From Methylophilus medardicus (GTDB lineage Bacteria > Pseudomonadota > Gammaproteobacteria > Burkholderiales > Methylophilaceae), in the NCBI RefSeq assembly GCF_006363955.1, contig NZ_CP040948.1:2170001-2234000 (forward strand): DNA of 64,000 bases. The letters run 5' to 3'. The translations under genes were made by a program, and so were the position numbers. Each line of letters begins with the position of its first letter. Position 1 is the first letter of the stretch. Below, in pieces: positions 52,271 through 58,762 of this stretch. A model generated the notes under the pieces. It ran no database searches, was not told the DNA's origin, and worked only from the letters and a program-made list of their open reading frames with translations.

Positions 52271-53089
52271 TCAAACCGACAACTGGCGGCGTCGCAACAG
52301 CGCACCCAACACCGGCAAGCCCATCGCAAACAGCCAAATGGCGGCTGGGGCCGGGACAGGACTAATCGCACTAGGGGCAATCCCGTTGACGCTGACGCTG
52401 AAGTTATCCACGGCAACTTTTGCGTTAAAGCCATCACAAGATACATAACATAGGTTGTAAGCTACATAACCAACGCCAAAACGCAACATTCCGCTGGTGA
52501 AATCAGGTCGGTCAGTGCTAAAAATCCCCTGACTAGCAAAGTCAGCATTTAAACTCTGCCAGTCGTTGCTTGCCACAGTATTAAAACCAAAGTTTTGCCA
52601 GTTGCTATTCGTGACAGAGGTTAAATTGTCCCACAAATGATAGATGCGACCGTTTTGTTCGATTGCCGCGGTTAAAAAACCCGCACTGTTGTTTGAGTAG
52701 CTTGACTCCAGCGTCTTTGCGTCAAAACGGATATCGAGGCTGGTCAGCACACCGTCAGTGGCGGGGTTCCAAGAGGCGAATTGATAGATCATAGCGATTG
52801 TGACACCGGGCGTGTATCTCTTACCGTCGGATGCAATTGGACTATCGTAGTCTGATTTTGACACGCCCATTTGCAAGTGACTACCAGGATTTCCCCCGCT
52901 GGCAACCACCGTTTTGAGCTCTGTGGATGCATTGGTATTATTGACTGTAATGGCATGCCAATCGATGTCTGTCATATCCCCCACGACCAGACTGGTCGCC
53001 TGGGCATTACCAGCTAGATGAAAAAAACAGAGTGCGAGCGTGGCCGCGGACTTTTGATGTTGAACAGCGTAACGAAGTAATCCAAGCAT
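52271..53089 (-). CDS. PEP-CTERM sorting domain protein (VPAPAA variant)
   Basis: A 272-residue exported protein from ATG 53089 with signal peptide through NAQA and a C-terminal sorting signal VPAPAAIWLF, hydrophobic helix and basic RRRQLSV tail (the VPxPAAxWL variant of PEP-CTERM). The body is predicted beta-rich with NTNAS-type glycosylation-like motifs and one CYVSC pair. An open frame extends upstream to 53227, but that part crosses the shared palindromic operator and is probably untranslated. Function unknown; exosortase substrate. Confidence 0.85.
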   Translation of the reverse strand: MLGLLRYAVQHQKSAATLALCFFHLAGNAQATSLVVGDMTDIDWHAITVNNTNASTELKTVVASGGNPGSHLQMGVSKSDYDSPIASDGKRYTPGVTIAMIYQFASWNPATDGVLTSLDIRFDAKTLESSYSNNSAGFLTAAIEQNGRIYHLWDNLTSVTNSNWQNFGFNTVASNDWQSLNADFASQGIFSTDRPDFTSGMLRFGVGYVAYNLCYVSCDGFNAKVAVDNFSVSVNGIAPSAISPVPAPAAIWLFAMGLPVLGALLRRRQLSV

Positions 53090-53148
53090 AGAATCAACCT
53101 TTCGATGAAGTGAACCTTGAAAAGAGCAAACACGATATCTAAAGGACT

Positions 53149-53192
53149 CTAGCGCATAAAGATCAACAAAAACACCCCGCAAACAGGGGGGG
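53149..53192 (-). promoter_or_regulatory. Palindromic operator and -10-like element, PEP-CTERM gene
   Basis: On the minus strand a C7 run, TGTTTGC and GGGG (palindrome at 53175-53192) are followed 22 nt later by CTAGAGT (CTAG at 53149-53152). The ATG is 60 nt further on. The same layout is found at 57184 and, more loosely, at 53964. Confidence 0.7.
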
Positions 53193-53252
53193 CTGACTGC
53201 ATGGAAGTCGCCCGCCTCTGTATCCAATTGCCTTTCAAATCTTTGATGCGGA

Positions 53253-53888
53253 CTAAATTAAACCCATTTTTTGCGCGCTGATGGCCGCCTCTGCCCGGGA
53301 GGAAACGTTCAATTTTCGATAGATTTCTTTCACATAGCCGGCAATGGTGTTGCGCTTGAGGCCAAGCATATTGGCAGTCTCGACCATGGTCATGCCTTTG
53401 GCAATGATAGACAGCACCTCTTTCTCACGCTCGGTGAGTAATGCTTGCGCGTGCAGCTCGGGCAAAGGCTCATGAAAATGGCGCAATAACTTTCTGGCAA
53501 TGGCTGGCGACAAAGGAGGTTGCCCGGTGACGATGCCGTTGAGCGCCTGCACGATCGCCGCCTGTGGCTGATCTTTGAGTAAATAGCCATGCGCACCGGC
53601 GCGTAATGCAGGAAAAATATGATTATCATCGTCAAAAATGCTGGCTACGACACAAATCGTGTGCAATGAGTGGCGATTGAACCACTCAATGACGCTGACA
53701 CCGCTGCCGTCGGGCAAGCTCAGGTCAATCAGGGCGATGTCCTGCGCGGGCAGGGTAGGCAATAATGCCAGTGCTTGCTCAATCGTATTGGCTGATTGAA
53801 TATGAATAGCAGGAAAGCTTTGGCGCAACACCTCTGACAGCCATACTTGCGACTCCGGGGTATCTTCAAGAATGAAAGCTGTTTTCAT
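53253..53888 (-). CDS. NarL/LuxR-family response regulator
   Basis: A 211-residue response regulator. The receiver (about 1-115) has the acidic pair Glu8-Asp9, the phosphoacceptor Asp55 (LIDLSLPDGSG) and the Lys in LLKDQ. The LuxR-type helix-turn-helix (about 145-208) shows LTEREKEVLSIIAKGMTMVETANMLGLKRNTIAGYVKEIYRKL. ATG 53888 is used. It is divergent from the outer-membrane gene; its partner is probably the histidine kinase at 55266, since both lie in the same cluster and match in type. The operator in its own upstream region suggests autoregulation. Confidence 0.92.
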   Translation of the reverse strand: MKTAFILEDTPESQVWLSEVLRQSFPAIHIQSANTIEQALALLPTLPAQDIALIDLSLPDGSGVSVIEWFNRHSLHTICVVASIFDDDNHIFPALRAGAHGYLLKDQPQAAIVQALNGIVTGQPPLSPAIARKLLRHFHEPLPELHAQALLTEREKEVLSIIAKGMTMVETANMLGLKRNTIAGYVKEIYRKLNVSSRAEAAISAQKMGLI

Positions 53889-53937
53889 GGCAACGCTGAC
53901 CAGTTTGATTGATTGCAAATAAATTAAGTTAGAGTGA

Positions 53938-53980
53938 CTATATACGAAATTCTAGGTAGCACACCCCCGCAAACAGGGGG
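53938..53980. promoter_or_regulatory. Palindromic operator between the response regulator and the OM-protein gene
   Basis: CCCCCGCAAACAGGGGG (53964-53980). Read towards the response regulator, GGGGG is followed 22 nt later by ATAGTCA, the same distance as at the other two sites. Read towards the + strand, TAGAAT follows after 17 nt, only 6 nt before the ATG at 54010. Confidence 0.7.
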
Positions 53981-54009
53981 CTCCCATTTAAAATAATTAG
54001 AATACACTC

Positions 54010-55269
54010 ATGGCCAATACAACACTTTGCCTGCGCACTTTGTCTGCTAAACCGTATTTTTTCGTATTGAGTATGTGTGCCATGGCGCCTGCATCCGCAC
54101 AAGAAGCCTTACCCACCTCAGCTTATTTTGGCTTAGAAACGATGGCGCCTGCAGGGGGTTGGGGGATTCGATTCGAGCAACGCAGTAATCATTTTGACCA
54201 CCGTTTTGATGACAACGGCCGCTTGCGTGATCTGGGGGCAAAATTCGATGCCATCGATTTAAATGCCAATGTGTTTCCGGCTTTATCGGCATTAGGCGCA
54301 AGTGCCTCATTGGGAAACACGCGCTTTAAAAGCGAAACCAACAACCAGATCAGTATTCTCACGCTCGGCTACGGCCTCACGCAGGACATCACCTTCGGCG
54401 CCATCATTCCTTATGCCATGTCACAAACGAAGATCCAGTTTGCCGTGGACGGCGGCAATGTCGGCGCAAACCCTTCTTTTGATGCTAACCAGCCGCTGGG
54501 GGCAGCAAACTTTCCGTTTGCCCCAGCAGGCGGGGGTATCGCGCCGATGGGCACCAACGGTGTGCAAAATGTGCTCAGCAACCCCGCCTTTGGTTATCAG
54601 TATAAAGCCCTACAGAATACGCGCACTGAGGGGCTAGGCGATCCCACCCTTGGCGTGTTGTGGCGCGCATACAAAGCGCCGGGAGAGAGCCTGATTATCG
54701 GGCTGGGCCTGCGATTAGGGCTAGCAAAAAAAGATGACCCAGATAACTTGTTGGACACCCCGCTAGGCGACGGCAGTCAAGACGTTCGCACACGTTTTGA
54801 GTATTTTCGTGACCTTGGCGCCAATCTCGACTTGCACCTGCTGGCGGATTACAACTGGCAAACCGCTGACAAGGCCACCATGCGCATTCCCGAGCCAGGT
54901 CAAGTATTAGCCCTGGCCAGTAGCAAACAACGTTTACGACGTGACCTAGGAGACTACTACGAAACGGACATTGAACTTGGCTACCGCTGGTCGAATTGGC
55001 GGGTATCGACCACTTGGCACCGCTACGAAAAAAAATCAGACACCTATCGCTCGAGCTTAGGCACGGACACCGCTAGCCTGCAACAAAACACCTTCACACG
55101 CGCCGACCAGTACCGCATCAGCGCCTCATGGAGCGGCATTCAGGCCTGGCAGCAAGGCAAACTGCCACTGCCCATCATTGTAAAACTAGAGCTACAAGAA
55201 ACCTTTGCTGGCCGTAATTTTGTCGATGTGAGCGATATTTACCTCCAAGTGATCACCCTATTTAAATGA
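54010..55269 (+). CDS. Outer-membrane beta-barrel protein, MetA-pathway-type porin/transporter-like
   Basis: A 419-residue exported protein: signal peptide about 1-31 ending SAQ, then repeated amphipathic beta-strands with aromatic edges (GWGIRFEQRSNHF, LTLGYGLTQDITFGAIIPYAM, IGLGLRLGLAKK, IELGYRWSNWRVSTTWHRY) and a terminal ITLFK. It resembles the 'putative MetA-pathway of phenol degradation' outer-membrane family, a loose label. No ribosome-binding site precedes the ATG, and the first -10-like element ends 6 nt before it, so it may be translated leaderless. It overlaps the kinase gene by 4 nt (ATGA). Confidence 0.8.
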   Translation: MANTTLCLRTLSAKPYFFVLSMCAMAPASAQEALPTSAYFGLETMAPAGGWGIRFEQRSNHFDHRFDDNGRLRDLGAKFDAIDLNANVFPALSALGASASLGNTRFKSETNNQISILTLGYGLTQDITFGAIIPYAMSQTKIQFAVDGGNVGANPSFDANQPLGAANFPFAPAGGGIAPMGTNGVQNVLSNPAFGYQYKALQNTRTEGLGDPTLGVLWRAYKAPGESLIIGLGLRLGLAKKDDPDNLLDTPLGDGSQDVRTRFEYFRDLGANLDLHLLADYNWQTADKATMRIPEPGQVLALASSKQRLRRDLGDYYETDIELGYRWSNWRVSTTWHRYEKKSDTYRSSLGTDTASLQQNTFTRADQYRISASWSGIQAWQQGKLPLPIIVKLELQETFAGRNFVDVSDIYLQVITLFK

Positions 55270-57155
55270 TCGTTGACACCCACTCAAGACGCTTTGCTTA
55301 TTTTGCACGCCAGCGGTGGTTGCGCGGCATACTCTGCTTGCTGTTGGTGTGTGCGCCCTTTCCTACCATGGCTGCAATTGCCAGTGGCGTCAATCTGACC
55401 CAGGGCTGGTTCACGCCCAATGCACAAACCACGCCGCCCAATGCGCAAGCAGCTTGGCAAGCGGTGAATATGCCTGATCTGTGGAAGATTCAACATCCAC
55501 AAGCCGATGGCCACGGCTGGTATCGATTTGAATTTGACTACCCCGGGCTAGACCCGCAACAGCTTTATGCACTTTATCTTTCACGACTAAGCCTCAATGG
55601 CGAGGCCTATTTGAACGGTCACAAAGTGGGCTCAGGGGGTGCATTCAGCGAGCCAGTCGCCCGCTACTGGAACCGTCCGCTGTTGTTTAACATCGCGCCC
55701 GGCGTGCTACAAACAAAACACAACACGCTCTATATTCGAATATTGGCACCACGCCATTCACAGGGCATGCTCTATGCGCCAGAGATCAACCTGCTGCAGA
55801 ACCTGCAGCCTCGTTATGAGCAGGCAAAGTTTATTCGCATCACCCTTAATCAAACCTCAAGCTTGCTGATTATCGGTATCGGCTTGTTAATGCTGAGCTT
55901 GTGGTGGCGACGCCGACAAGACACAGCATATGGCTTGTTTGGTTTGGCCGCTTTTATCTGGGCGTTGCAATCACTCAATTTTTATATCATCACGGCACCG
56001 CTGCCTACCCCGCAGTGGGAGCTATTGGTCAATGCCAGCTTTCAAGCCATTGCGACTTTGTGGCTCATTTCGTTGCTGGATTTTGTCGGTATTCGTCTGC
56101 AGCGGTTTAACCGCCTGCTATGGGCCATGTTAGTGCTTTCACCGATCAGCTTGTGGTGTATGCCCGCGGCTTATTTCACCCTAGCGACGGATTTCTGGCA
56201 TCTGTTGACCATGGCAGTGGTGGTGTTTGGCCTCACGCTGCTGGCCAGAGAAGGCTTTGTGCATCGTAATAAAGACGCAAATTTACTGCTACTGACACTG
56301 AGTCTGATTTTGCTGTTTGCTTTTCATGACTGGCTGATCCATACCAACATTGCAGGACTCAACCAATGGATGACTGGGGAAGAATATCTGATGCAGTTTT
56401 CTGCCCCCGTGCTATTTCTGATCGTGGGCCTGATGATGACCTCGCGCTACGTGGGCGCACTCAATAACTACGAGCAACTCAACTTGCAACTTGAACAACG
56501 GGTCATTTCAAAACACCAAGAACTCAACCAAAACTTTCAACAATTACAATCGATTCTCAAAGAGCAGGCCACGCTTGAAGAACGCGAGCGCATCTATCAG
56601 GATTTGCATGACGATCTTGGTGCGAAGTTGCTCACGCTGGTGTATCGGGCGCAAACACCGCACAACGCCGAGCTGGCCCGATCTGCGTTGCAAGACTTGC
56701 GCGATGTGGTCTCGCGTGCCGGCGCAGAGAGTGTACCCGTCACTTATGCCATGGCAGATTACCGCATTGAATGCGAAAAACGGCTAAGTGATGTGCATAT
56801 TCAGCTGATTTGGGATAACCAAATTTGTGAGGAGCACCTGCACCTAACACAACCGCAAGTGCTCAATCTAGGCCGGATTATTCGCGAAGCCGTCTCCAAC
56901 GTCATTCGGCATGCCCAGGCTACGCGTGTGAGCATCCGTTTGTGTGCAAATCATGCCTACTTGCAACTAGATATCTGCGATGACGGCATCGGCTTGCCCA
57001 ACACTCACGACAATACCAAAGGACGTGGTTTAAGCAATATCCAAAAACGGGCCGCGCTATTGGGCGGAGAAATCCACTTTGCGTCCGCTGACAACGGCGG
57101 ACTTCGACTGAGCCTCCGCCTGCCCCGGCAACATTTACAAGTCAAACAGACCTGA
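55266..57155 (+). CDS. Membrane sensor histidine kinase with sugar-binding-like sensor domain
   Basis: A 629-residue kinase. A signal peptide/first helix (about 18-38) is followed by a periplasmic jelly-roll resembling the GH2 sugar-binding/7TMR-DISM extracellular domains (GHGWYRFEFDYPG, LYLSRLSLNGEAYLNGHKVG). Seven or so membrane helices (about 195-405) and a coiled coil (about 410-440) come next. The HisKA_3 dimerisation domain has His448 in IYQDLHDDLGAKLL. The HATPase has an N box REAVSNVIRHA, DDGIGLP and GRGLSNI. This is the NarX/DesK type that pairs with NarL-type regulators. It overlaps the OM gene by 4 nt. Confidence 0.9.
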   Translation: MIVDTHSRRFAYFARQRWLRGILCLLLVCAPFPTMAAIASGVNLTQGWFTPNAQTTPPNAQAAWQAVNMPDLWKIQHPQADGHGWYRFEFDYPGLDPQQLYALYLSRLSLNGEAYLNGHKVGSGGAFSEPVARYWNRPLLFNIAPGVLQTKHNTLYIRILAPRHSQGMLYAPEINLLQNLQPRYEQAKFIRITLNQTSSLLIIGIGLLMLSLWWRRRQDTAYGLFGLAAFIWALQSLNFYIITAPLPTPQWELLVNASFQAIATLWLISLLDFVGIRLQRFNRLLWAMLVLSPISLWCMPAAYFTLATDFWHLLTMAVVVFGLTLLAREGFVHRNKDANLLLLTLSLILLFAFHDWLIHTNIAGLNQWMTGEEYLMQFSAPVLFLIVGLMMTSRYVGALNNYEQLNLQLEQRVISKHQELNQNFQQLQSILKEQATLEERERIYQDLHDDLGAKLLTLVYRAQTPHNAELARSALQDLRDVVSRAGAESVPVTYAMADYRIECEKRLSDVHIQLIWDNQICEEHLHLTQPQVLNLGRIIREAVSNVIRHAQATRVSIRLCANHAYLQLDICDDGIGLPNTHDNTKGRGLSNIQKRAALLGGEIHFASADNGGLRLSLRLPRQHLQVKQT

Positions 57156-57183
57156 CCCTAGTCGCTTGCTTTACCCTGTTCTG

Positions 57184-57226
57184 CCCCCCTGTTCAGGGGG
57201 TGCACTTAGCACACAAAACTCACTAG
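57184..57226 (+). promoter_or_regulatory. Palindromic operator and -10-like element, PEP-CTERM gene at 57271
   Basis: CCCCCCTGTTCAGGGGG (57184-57200) is followed exactly 22 nt later by CTAGTAT (CTAG at 57223-57226). The ATG is 45 nt further on. The layout matches the sites at 53149-53192 and 53938-53980. Confidence 0.7.
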
Positions 57227-57270
57227 TATTGGATCGTATTAATTTAGCCATCCATTCACAGGAGATGTTT

Positions 57271-57960
57271 ATGAGTTCATGCAAAAAGTACCTAAGCCGG
57301 ATTGTTGTGGCAGCATTATTCGCAAGTAGCTTCACTGCCGCACAAGCTGCAACTTCAACGGCAATCTTCTGGGGGCCAAGCGCTTACCTTTCCGCAAATG
57401 ATATTCCTGTCGGTTTTTATGCCGGCGGCAGCCCACAGCTGCTAGACACGCTTGAGGATGGTTCGTTGGATGCCTCTCTGAGCGCAAATAATGGCGCTGT
57501 GTATGGCCCTACTGGCATTGCAGATTCGGTAGATTCGGATGATGGCAACATTGACGGCTTCGGGACCGCCGGGCGCAGTTGGTTTTCCGGCACAGTGACG
57601 TTTACCTTTGTTGGCAACGGCCCCTTGCCAACCGCCTTTGGTCTCGTCTGGACCGATGGCTCAGGCACAATTACCTTTAGTGCCCAAGATGCCAATGGTC
57701 AATCGCTTGGCTCTAACGCATTTAATGGGATTCCAGACAACACTTTTGGCGGCACCACCGGCGATGACCGTTTTTTTGGAGTGCAATTTGCAGGTGGGAT
57801 TAAATCGATCACGATCGGCACAGGCGGTGGCATTGAAGTAGATCATATCCAGTATGGACAAATGGTGAGCAGCGTGCCGGAGCCATCTTTAGCCCTAATG
57901 TTAAGCCTGGGCTTGATGAGTCTAATTAATCTGCGTCGTAAAAACGATACCACTACTTAA
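57271..57960 (+). CDS. PEP-CTERM sorting domain protein
   Basis: A 229-residue exported protein. Signal peptide about 1-25 ending AQA, a Gly/Ser/Asp-rich beta body, and the C-terminal sorting signal VPEPSLALMLSLGLMSL followed by NLRRKN. ATG 57271 has GGAG 6 nt upstream; the in-frame ATG two codons earlier directly abuts the GGAG and is unlikely. It follows the kinase gene by 115 nt with its own operator-promoter and precedes a second exported protein by 46 nt. Confidence 0.88.
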   Translation: MSSCKKYLSRIVVAALFASSFTAAQAATSTAIFWGPSAYLSANDIPVGFYAGGSPQLLDTLEDGSLDASLSANNGAVYGPTGIADSVDSDDGNIDGFGTAGRSWFSGTVTFTFVGNGPLPTAFGLVWTDGSGTITFSAQDANGQSLGSNAFNGIPDNTFGGTTGDDRFFGVQFAGGIKSITIGTGGGIEVDHIQYGQMVSSVPEPSLALMLSLGLMSLINLRRKNDTTT

Positions 57961-58006: not shown

Positions 58007-58762
58007 ATGTATCGTCTAATCACTCAGGTCATCGCTATTTGCTTTGCCAGTACGATGGCCGCCCCGGCTTCTGCTGCATTCACGGTTTACAGCGATCAAG
58101 CAAGTTTTTTAGCCGCAGCAGGCACACTCAGCACCGAAACCTTTAACAATGTGAGTGCTGATATTGCCGCCAGCAGCGCAGGGGCGGCGATCGCCGATTT
58201 CACCGTCAATGGGAATGCGATAGTTGACGCGCCGTCAACCTCGATAGACATCAACGGCACAGGCAACCTTTACCTCAACATCTCTTACGGTGGCTGGGCG
58301 GACTTGATATTTAATCAGCCGATCACCGCATTTGGCATGAAGATGAACAATAGTCGCCTGCAGTTACTATCTATCAATATTGACCGTATTGGGACCGGCA
58401 CGGGTGAATATCATCACATTGCTTCGTATGCAGCGCCCGACCCTTATGTCAATGATCAATCTTTCAACGGGTTTCTCGGCTTCACCTCTGATATGGCATT
58501 TAACCGTATTGTATTTTCAGGGACCGGATGTTGTGCCAGTACATTTGCTGTGGATGATGTGGTCTACGCCACGACCCTCGCCAACCCGGTGCCTGAGCCA
58601 CTTAATCGAAGCTTGCTAGGCAGTGGTTTGGTCACCTTGCTTATACTTAGCAGAAAAAACGCGGTGATTCAGCTTGCCTTGGCACTTGCTGGTGCACATA
58701 CCGCGCATAGTGCCAACGCAAATGCTAGCGCATCAACTTCACTTAGGCATCTTTCCACTTAA
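58007..58762 (+). CDS. PEP-CTERM-like exported protein with an abnormal C-terminal extension
   Basis: A 251-residue protein: signal peptide about 1-24 (ending ASA), a beta-rich body with a GCCAS pair, then PVPEPLNRSLLGSGLVTLLILSRKN, a normal PEP-CTERM signal ending near residue 219. About 32 further residues follow (ALALAGAHTAHSANANASAS...), where typical family members stop. The extension overlaps the convergent redoxin gene by 20 nt. A lost stop codon or frameshift near 58665 is likely; the sorting signal may or may not still function. GGGAGA precedes the ATG. Confidence 0.75.
   Translation: MYRLITQVIAICFASTMAAPASAAFTVYSDQASFLAAAGTLSTETFNNVSADIAASSAGAAIADFTVNGNAIVDAPSTSIDINGTGNLYLNISYGGWADLIFNQPITAFGMKMNNSRLQLLSINIDRIGTGTGEYHHIASYAAPDPYVNDQSFNGFLGFTSDMAFNRIVFSGTGCCASTFAVDDVVYATTLANPVPEPLNRSLLGSGLVTLLILSRKNAVIQLALALAGAHTAHSANANASASTSLRHLST

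Follow-up and report, generated by a model that had tools for sequence, protein, structure and literature searches.

A putative palindromic operator at a fixed distance from the -10 element in a NarL-type two-component locus with PEP-CTERM genes of Methylophilus medardicus

Introduction

Two-component control of PEP-CTERM genes has been described for PrsK/PrsR, a system which acts through sigma-54 (Haft 2006, PMC1569441; Aquincola pepA, PMC9850573). PrsR is an NtrC-type enhancer-binding protein, and motif 1, which ends in TTTACA, is located about 63 nt upstream from a -24/-12 promoter. The locus of M. medardicus described here is similar in that a two-component system is associated with a common upstream motif of PEP-CTERM genes in Proteobacteria; it differs in having a NarL-type regulator, a G+C palindrome at about -43 as its motif, and a -10 element of the form TANNNT in the promoter.

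DevR/DosR of Mycobacterium tuberculosis, a regulator of the NarL subfamily, has a start-proximal site that overlaps the -35 element of its target promoters (PMC3029386). The M. medardicus regulator is likewise of the NarL type with a predicted site overlapping the -35 position, and would work like DevR, a likeness of mode of action for which no family membership is claimed: operator and targets are different, and each promoter has a single site instead of tandem Dev boxes. The closest relatives of solved structure are E. coli NarL (1a04) and Staphylococcus VraR (5hev), with similarity over the full length, receiver and helix-turn-helix (HTH) included, but the score against NarL (91.7 versus 250 bits) is far below the equivalog cut-off and the targets are others. 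EpsA (TIGR03020, XrtB/PEP-CTERM-associated) has a LuxR-type HTH and is tied to PEP-CTERM systems, as is the case here; however, the regulator reaches 38.6 bits against a cut-off of 170, only the HTH aligns, and the protein is not of the EpsA family.

No description of the regulator was found in the literature, and none of four operator variants occurred in the open-access papers searched. Sequence comparison suggests that the system acts like DevR and NarL at the promoter and plays a PrsR-like part for some PEP-CTERM genes, being a member of neither group.

Results

Gene content of the cluster

The cluster is located in a 2.6 Mb genome consisting of one contig, whose closest named relatives are Methylophilus strains. 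In the window, i.e. the whole stretch of 64,000 nucleotides that was analyzed, its genes are found in the following order, with the barrel gene divergent from the regulator gene:

52271-53092, minus strand: PEP1, exported protein with a PEP-CTERM-type (VPAPAA) C-terminus, predicted target (TIGR02595, 17.4 against a cut-off of 16 bits)
53253-53888, minus strand: NarL/FixJ-type response regulator, ATG at 53888, proposed activator (Response_reg and GerE domains)
54010-55269, plus strand: outer-membrane beta-barrel of 419 aa, in a conserved cassette (fold comparison)
55266-57155, plus strand: histidine kinase composed of HisKA_3, HATPase and a 7TMR-DISM membrane domain, thought of as the candidate kinase for the regulator (domains, co-occurrence)
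57271-57960, plus strand: PEP2, PEP-CTERM protein, predicted target (TIGR02595, 20.3 against a cut-off of 16 bits)
58007-58762, plus strand: PEP3, PEP-CTERM-like protein, 46 nt downstream from PEP2

PEP1 and PEP2, which an earlier note on this DNA had named as two PEP-CTERM genes, hold at the NCBIfam cut-off; PEP1 is an atypical VPAPAA variant and scores under the cut-off of Pfam. PEP3 is probably part of the PEP2 transcript. It extends 30-odd residues beyond the PEP-CTERM segment and overlaps the end of a convergent thioredoxin-like gene; its orthologue in locus L078 (445-1131) ends right after this segment, and the extension is perhaps due to a changed stop or a frameshift.

The regulator has a receiver domain (PF00072, 52.6 against 30.2 bits) and a C-terminal GerE/LuxR-type HTH (PF00196, 51.2 against 23.5 bits) with the recognition helix YVKEIYRKL. 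The phospho-acceptor aspartate D55 and K105 are invariant in 23 homologues. The HATPase_c domain of the kinase is over the cut-off (47.1 bits); its HisKA_3 match is weak and under the cut-off, but H448 is invariant.

No Pfam family was found for the barrel protein. The folds closest to its model (pLDDT 84) are those of the COG4313 channel and of FapF, an amyloid transporter, with a TM-score of about 0.5 by query length and an identity of about 10%, a likeness that is taken as a lead only.

In the genus Methylophilus, none of 23 genomes, M. medardicus included, has a PrsR (TIGR02915) match over the cut-off. The best match of this species scored 411.9 against 502.6 bits, which indicates that close NtrC-type paralogues exist and leaves a small probability for an unusual PrsR.

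Palindromes and promoter geometry

Pattern search located three palindromes in the cluster, with the positions and orientations given for them in the earlier note, as rechecked on the sequence. Each is accompanied by a -10-like hexamer, whose offset is given relative to the last base of the 14-mer core:

53175-53192, minus strand: putative palindromic operator 1, core CCCCTGTTTGCGGG at 53176-53189
53146-53151, minus strand: -10-like TAGAGT of the PEP1 promoter, offset 25
53964-53980, minus strand: putative palindromic operator 2, in the intergenic region from which the regulator and barrel genes diverge, core CCCCTGTTTGCGGG at 53966-53979
53937-53942, minus strand: -10-like TATAGT of the regulator promoter, offset 24
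57184-57200, plus strand: putative palindromic operator 3, core CCCCTGTTCAGGGG at 57186-57199
57224-57229, plus strand: -10-like TAGTAT of the PEP2 promoter, offset 25

The consensus of the palindrome is CCCCTRTTYRSGGG, about 14-16 bp long. The pattern CCCCTGTT-N(1-4)-GGGG occurs at 3 places in the whole genome, all inside the cluster, and the reversed control pattern gave 0 matches genome-wide; the many unrelated matches that the earlier note had named as a refuting outcome were thus not seen in this pattern search. The window has 3 exact sites, and 4 sites with at most one mismatch, where shuffles give an expectation of 0.14; the number of sites is thus far above chance. When the -10 element was required at offset 25, with up to two mismatches, the genome-wide search returned the two offset-25 sites and two chance-like extras (control, 1); the regulator promoter, with its offset of 24, falls outside this pattern.

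A spacing of exactly 22 nt between the end of the G-run and the -10 region had been claimed. The strings CTAGAGT, ATAGTCA and CTAGTAT do each begin exactly 22 nt past the G-run, but the hexamers themselves (TAGAGT, TATAGT and TAGTAT) start after 23, 21 and 23 nt. The value of 22 is partly a coincidence of register: measured from the 14-mer core CCCCTGTTYRSGGG, TANNNT starts at base 25, 24 and 25 past its end in the PEP1, regulator and PEP2 promoters, respectively, and this is the register conserved in relatives.

With the hexamer set at -12 to -7, the centre of the palindrome is at -43.5 (or -42.5) from the predicted start. The three promoters have no recognisable -35 element. The best -35 match averages 2.9 of 6 positions against 2.5 in shuffled sequence, i.e. 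near chance level. A -24(GG)/-12(GC) promoter was not seen by eye in any of the three. Since the palindromes are centred near -43, within the range of -41 to -44 expected for class II activators, and the -35 match is near the shuffled level, the geometry is that of class II activation, the layout proposed in the earlier note, which is thereby supported.

Judging from these sequence features, it is likely that the phosphorylated regulator binds the palindrome and acts as a class II activator of its own gene and of a few surface-protein genes. The 7TMR-DISM kinase would phosphorylate the regulator on Asp55, a regulator dimer would bind the palindrome at about -43, overlapping the missing or poor -35 element, and the bound regulator would recruit sigma-70-type RNA polymerase to the -10 element. 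The targets would be the regulator itself (positive autoregulation), PEP1, PEP2 and, by way of the PEP2 transcript, probably PEP3, resulting in a dedicated surface-protein circuit.

The same regulator and operator could instead serve repression, the dimer covering the -35 region and blocking the polymerase, with negative autoregulation and derepression on a signal. A site that overlaps the -35 position would be usable by a repressor too, but promoters almost devoid of a -35 match fit dependence on an activator, and a spacing held to 1 nt is demanded more by contact between activator and polymerase than by a steric block; repression is therefore unlikely.

Occurrence in Methylophilus

The regulator was found in 9 of 22 Methylophilus genomes at an identity of at least 84%; the remaining 13 have no orthologue that reaches this value. 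The distribution of the kinase is exactly the same (9/9 and 0/13), and on this ground the kinase is proposed as the partner of the regulator.

In all nine regulator-carrying genomes the palindrome is part of the promoter of the regulator gene itself, and the sequence at the -10 element reads GTATATAGT or GTTTATAGT. The offset of this element is 24 in seven genomes and 25 in two; most regulator promoters (24) thus deviate by 1 nt from the other sites (25), a point against the proposed mechanism. A second promoter, reading from operator 2 into the barrel gene, was considered as a possibility; on that side the sequence is conserved only in close relatives.

Over the loci of these nine genomes, TANNNT was present at 24 or 25 in 20 of 23 distinct site-strands (6 and 14, respectively), and at any other offset in at most 4. 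A single site, an intrinsic terminator with a T-run (GGCACCCCCTGAACTGGGGGTGCCTTTTTT), accounts through its orthologous copies for two of the three exceptions; the last one is an antisense strand, and the opposite strand of that palindrome fits. The binomial probability of the 24/25 spacing is about 1e-23, and about 1e-9 when the sites are collapsed to seven independent promoters; the latter is the honest figure, because occurrences within the genus are related by descent and the raw value overstates their independence.

The counterpart of operator 1 is located between the regulator and PEP1 in L076 and upstream from a different, large PEP-CTERM gene in L081. The counterpart of operator 3 was found upstream from the PEP2 orthologue in L064/L076, L066 and L067/L078.

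Link between palindrome and regulator

Among the matches inspected in 60 relatives, with one locus taken per genome where there were several matches, all palindromes with a -10 element at 24 or 25 belong to regulator-positive genomes; no palindrome inspected in a relative without the regulator has this element. In the class-wide sample the sole inspected exact palindrome with the spacing, besides those of the window, was found in G290, which is regulator-positive.

The exact CCCCTRTTYAGGGG alone was rejected as a class-wide marker: its matches in regulator-less genomes are mostly terminators, coding DNA and repeats, and for this reason palindrome plus -10 element was used as the marker. In one family (loci L167, L168, L169, L179-L181 and L183; genomes G193, G310 and G407) each genome has between 3 and 21 exact copies of CCCCTGTTYAGGGG, most of them inside a longer repeat (CCCCGCCCCCTGTTTAGGGGGCGGG), with neither regulator nor -10 element; these copies have the appearance of a dispersed repeat that is not related to the operator.

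When one genome per species was scanned, 23 further loci were obtained, picked by protein peptides and not by the DNA motif, in which the regulator is 40-59% identical and always has the helix YVKEIYRKL. They come from Gallionella, Thiobacillus, Xanthomonadales, Moraxellaceae, Zhongshania, Kangiellaceae and other Beta- and Gammaproteobacteria. These loci contain 13 strict sites against 0.1 in shuffles, and a -10 element at 24 or 25 follows on at least one strand in 9 of 14 distant sites (9 counts for offset 25, 2 for 24 and 1 for any other). Examples are three sites near the regulator in L101 (Kangiellaceae) and the regulator promoters in L084 and L086. Several of the distant loci (L083, L084, L086, L087 and L089) have the barrel gene together with the regulator.

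In a random class sample, composites of palindrome and -10 element occurred in 2 of 32 loci whose regulators have other helices, compared to 9 of the 23 YVKEIYRKL loci (P = 0.005). The other-helix regulators have similar receivers, for example with the helix GYIKNIYQKL. Loci of high-scoring regulators, mostly with other helices, showed a weaker enrichment (2 versus 0.2 and 3 versus 0 strict matches) and mostly had no composite. A composite site within 7 kb is missing from about 14 of the 23 distant loci, which speaks against the proposed reading; the explanation would be either drift of the operator or the use of another site by part of the family.

The composite is thus associated with the helix predicted to read the DNA. 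This favours the regulator over other factors and supports the earlier nomination of the NarL-type protein as the candidate binder. A different DNA-binding protein, encoded elsewhere, might own the operator, with the regulator cassette as one of its targets, given that binding is deduced from co-occurrence. This we regard as very unlikely: site presence matches the regulator in 61 relatives, as far as inspected, and the site recurs beside distant homologues in unrelated genomes, in association with the regulator's recognition helix.

It is more improbable still that the palindromes are intrinsic terminators or transcribed hairpins. They are G+C-rich hairpins, two of the three are located just past a stop codon, a T-rich stretch comes after operator 1 in the window, and one near-match in L067 as well as several exact matches in other genomes are real terminators. 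However, operator 2 is situated between divergent genes, conserved sites have no T-runs, and this reading leaves the fixed -10 spacing unexplained; the sites are also upstream from the -10 element and outside the transcript that they precede. For operator 1 in particular a terminator function was rejected, the T-run being missing in L076 and L081.

Chance or the local duplication of a promoter segment, which three copies within 4 kb might suggest, can practically be dismissed: the spacers of the three sites differ, with only the core and the -10 element in common, shuffles give no such sites, and the same layout arises independently in distant genomes.

Candidate target genes

Activation by the regulator is predicted to concern a small, dedicated set, namely the regulator gene, PEP1, and PEP2 with PEP3, among 29 or more PEP-CTERM genes: the genome contains 29 PEP-CTERM matches over the Pfam cut-off, together with an exosortase. 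In other Methylophilus strains the candidate targets appear to change while remaining secreted or surface proteins. In G010 (L072) the site-linked gene codes for a very large repeat PEP-CTERM protein, and in G012 (L073) for a small exported one.

In Alkanindiges and other Moraxellaceae, sites were found near lipoprotein genes. In L116 and L118, also from Moraxellaceae, palindromes are located about 100 nt upstream from a lipoprotein gene (GTAATGKPF...) that is orthologous in the two loci and distant from the regulator; this gene is a candidate distal target. L070, a locus from a Methylophilus strain, and L069 contain a candidate target operon with a gene for a long acidic repeat protein, which in L070 precedes one for a secretin-like lipoprotein; this operon may encode a secretion system under the same putative operator.

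Discussion

The comparison provides an uncharacterised two-component family with a predicted operator, a promoter geometry and a target list, all of which are directly testable, and the operator code is predictive across proteobacteria. It also suggests how PEP-CTERM surface proteins may be switched on in bacteria that have no PrsR with its sigma-54 control; as far as sequence allows one to judge, the circuit would add to the PrsR route of PEP-CTERM expression a second one, of the sigma-70 type.

More tentatively, a widespread, unnamed proteobacterial two-component family, composed of the kinase, the YVKEIYRKL regulator and often a FapF/COG4313-like barrel, might govern the export or display of surface proteins via CCCCTRTTYAGGGG and a -10 element at 24-25 nt, and might represent the non-sigma-54 control of PEP-CTERM genes in lineages lacking PrsR. 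The barrel may serve the export pathway or sensing.

In L188 and L189 the regulators have the helix SYVKTIYRKL, and the variant palindromes CCCCGGAACAGGGG and CCCCTGAACAAGGGG are found some 90 nt upstream; helix and operator may form a matching pair in a neighbouring subfamily.
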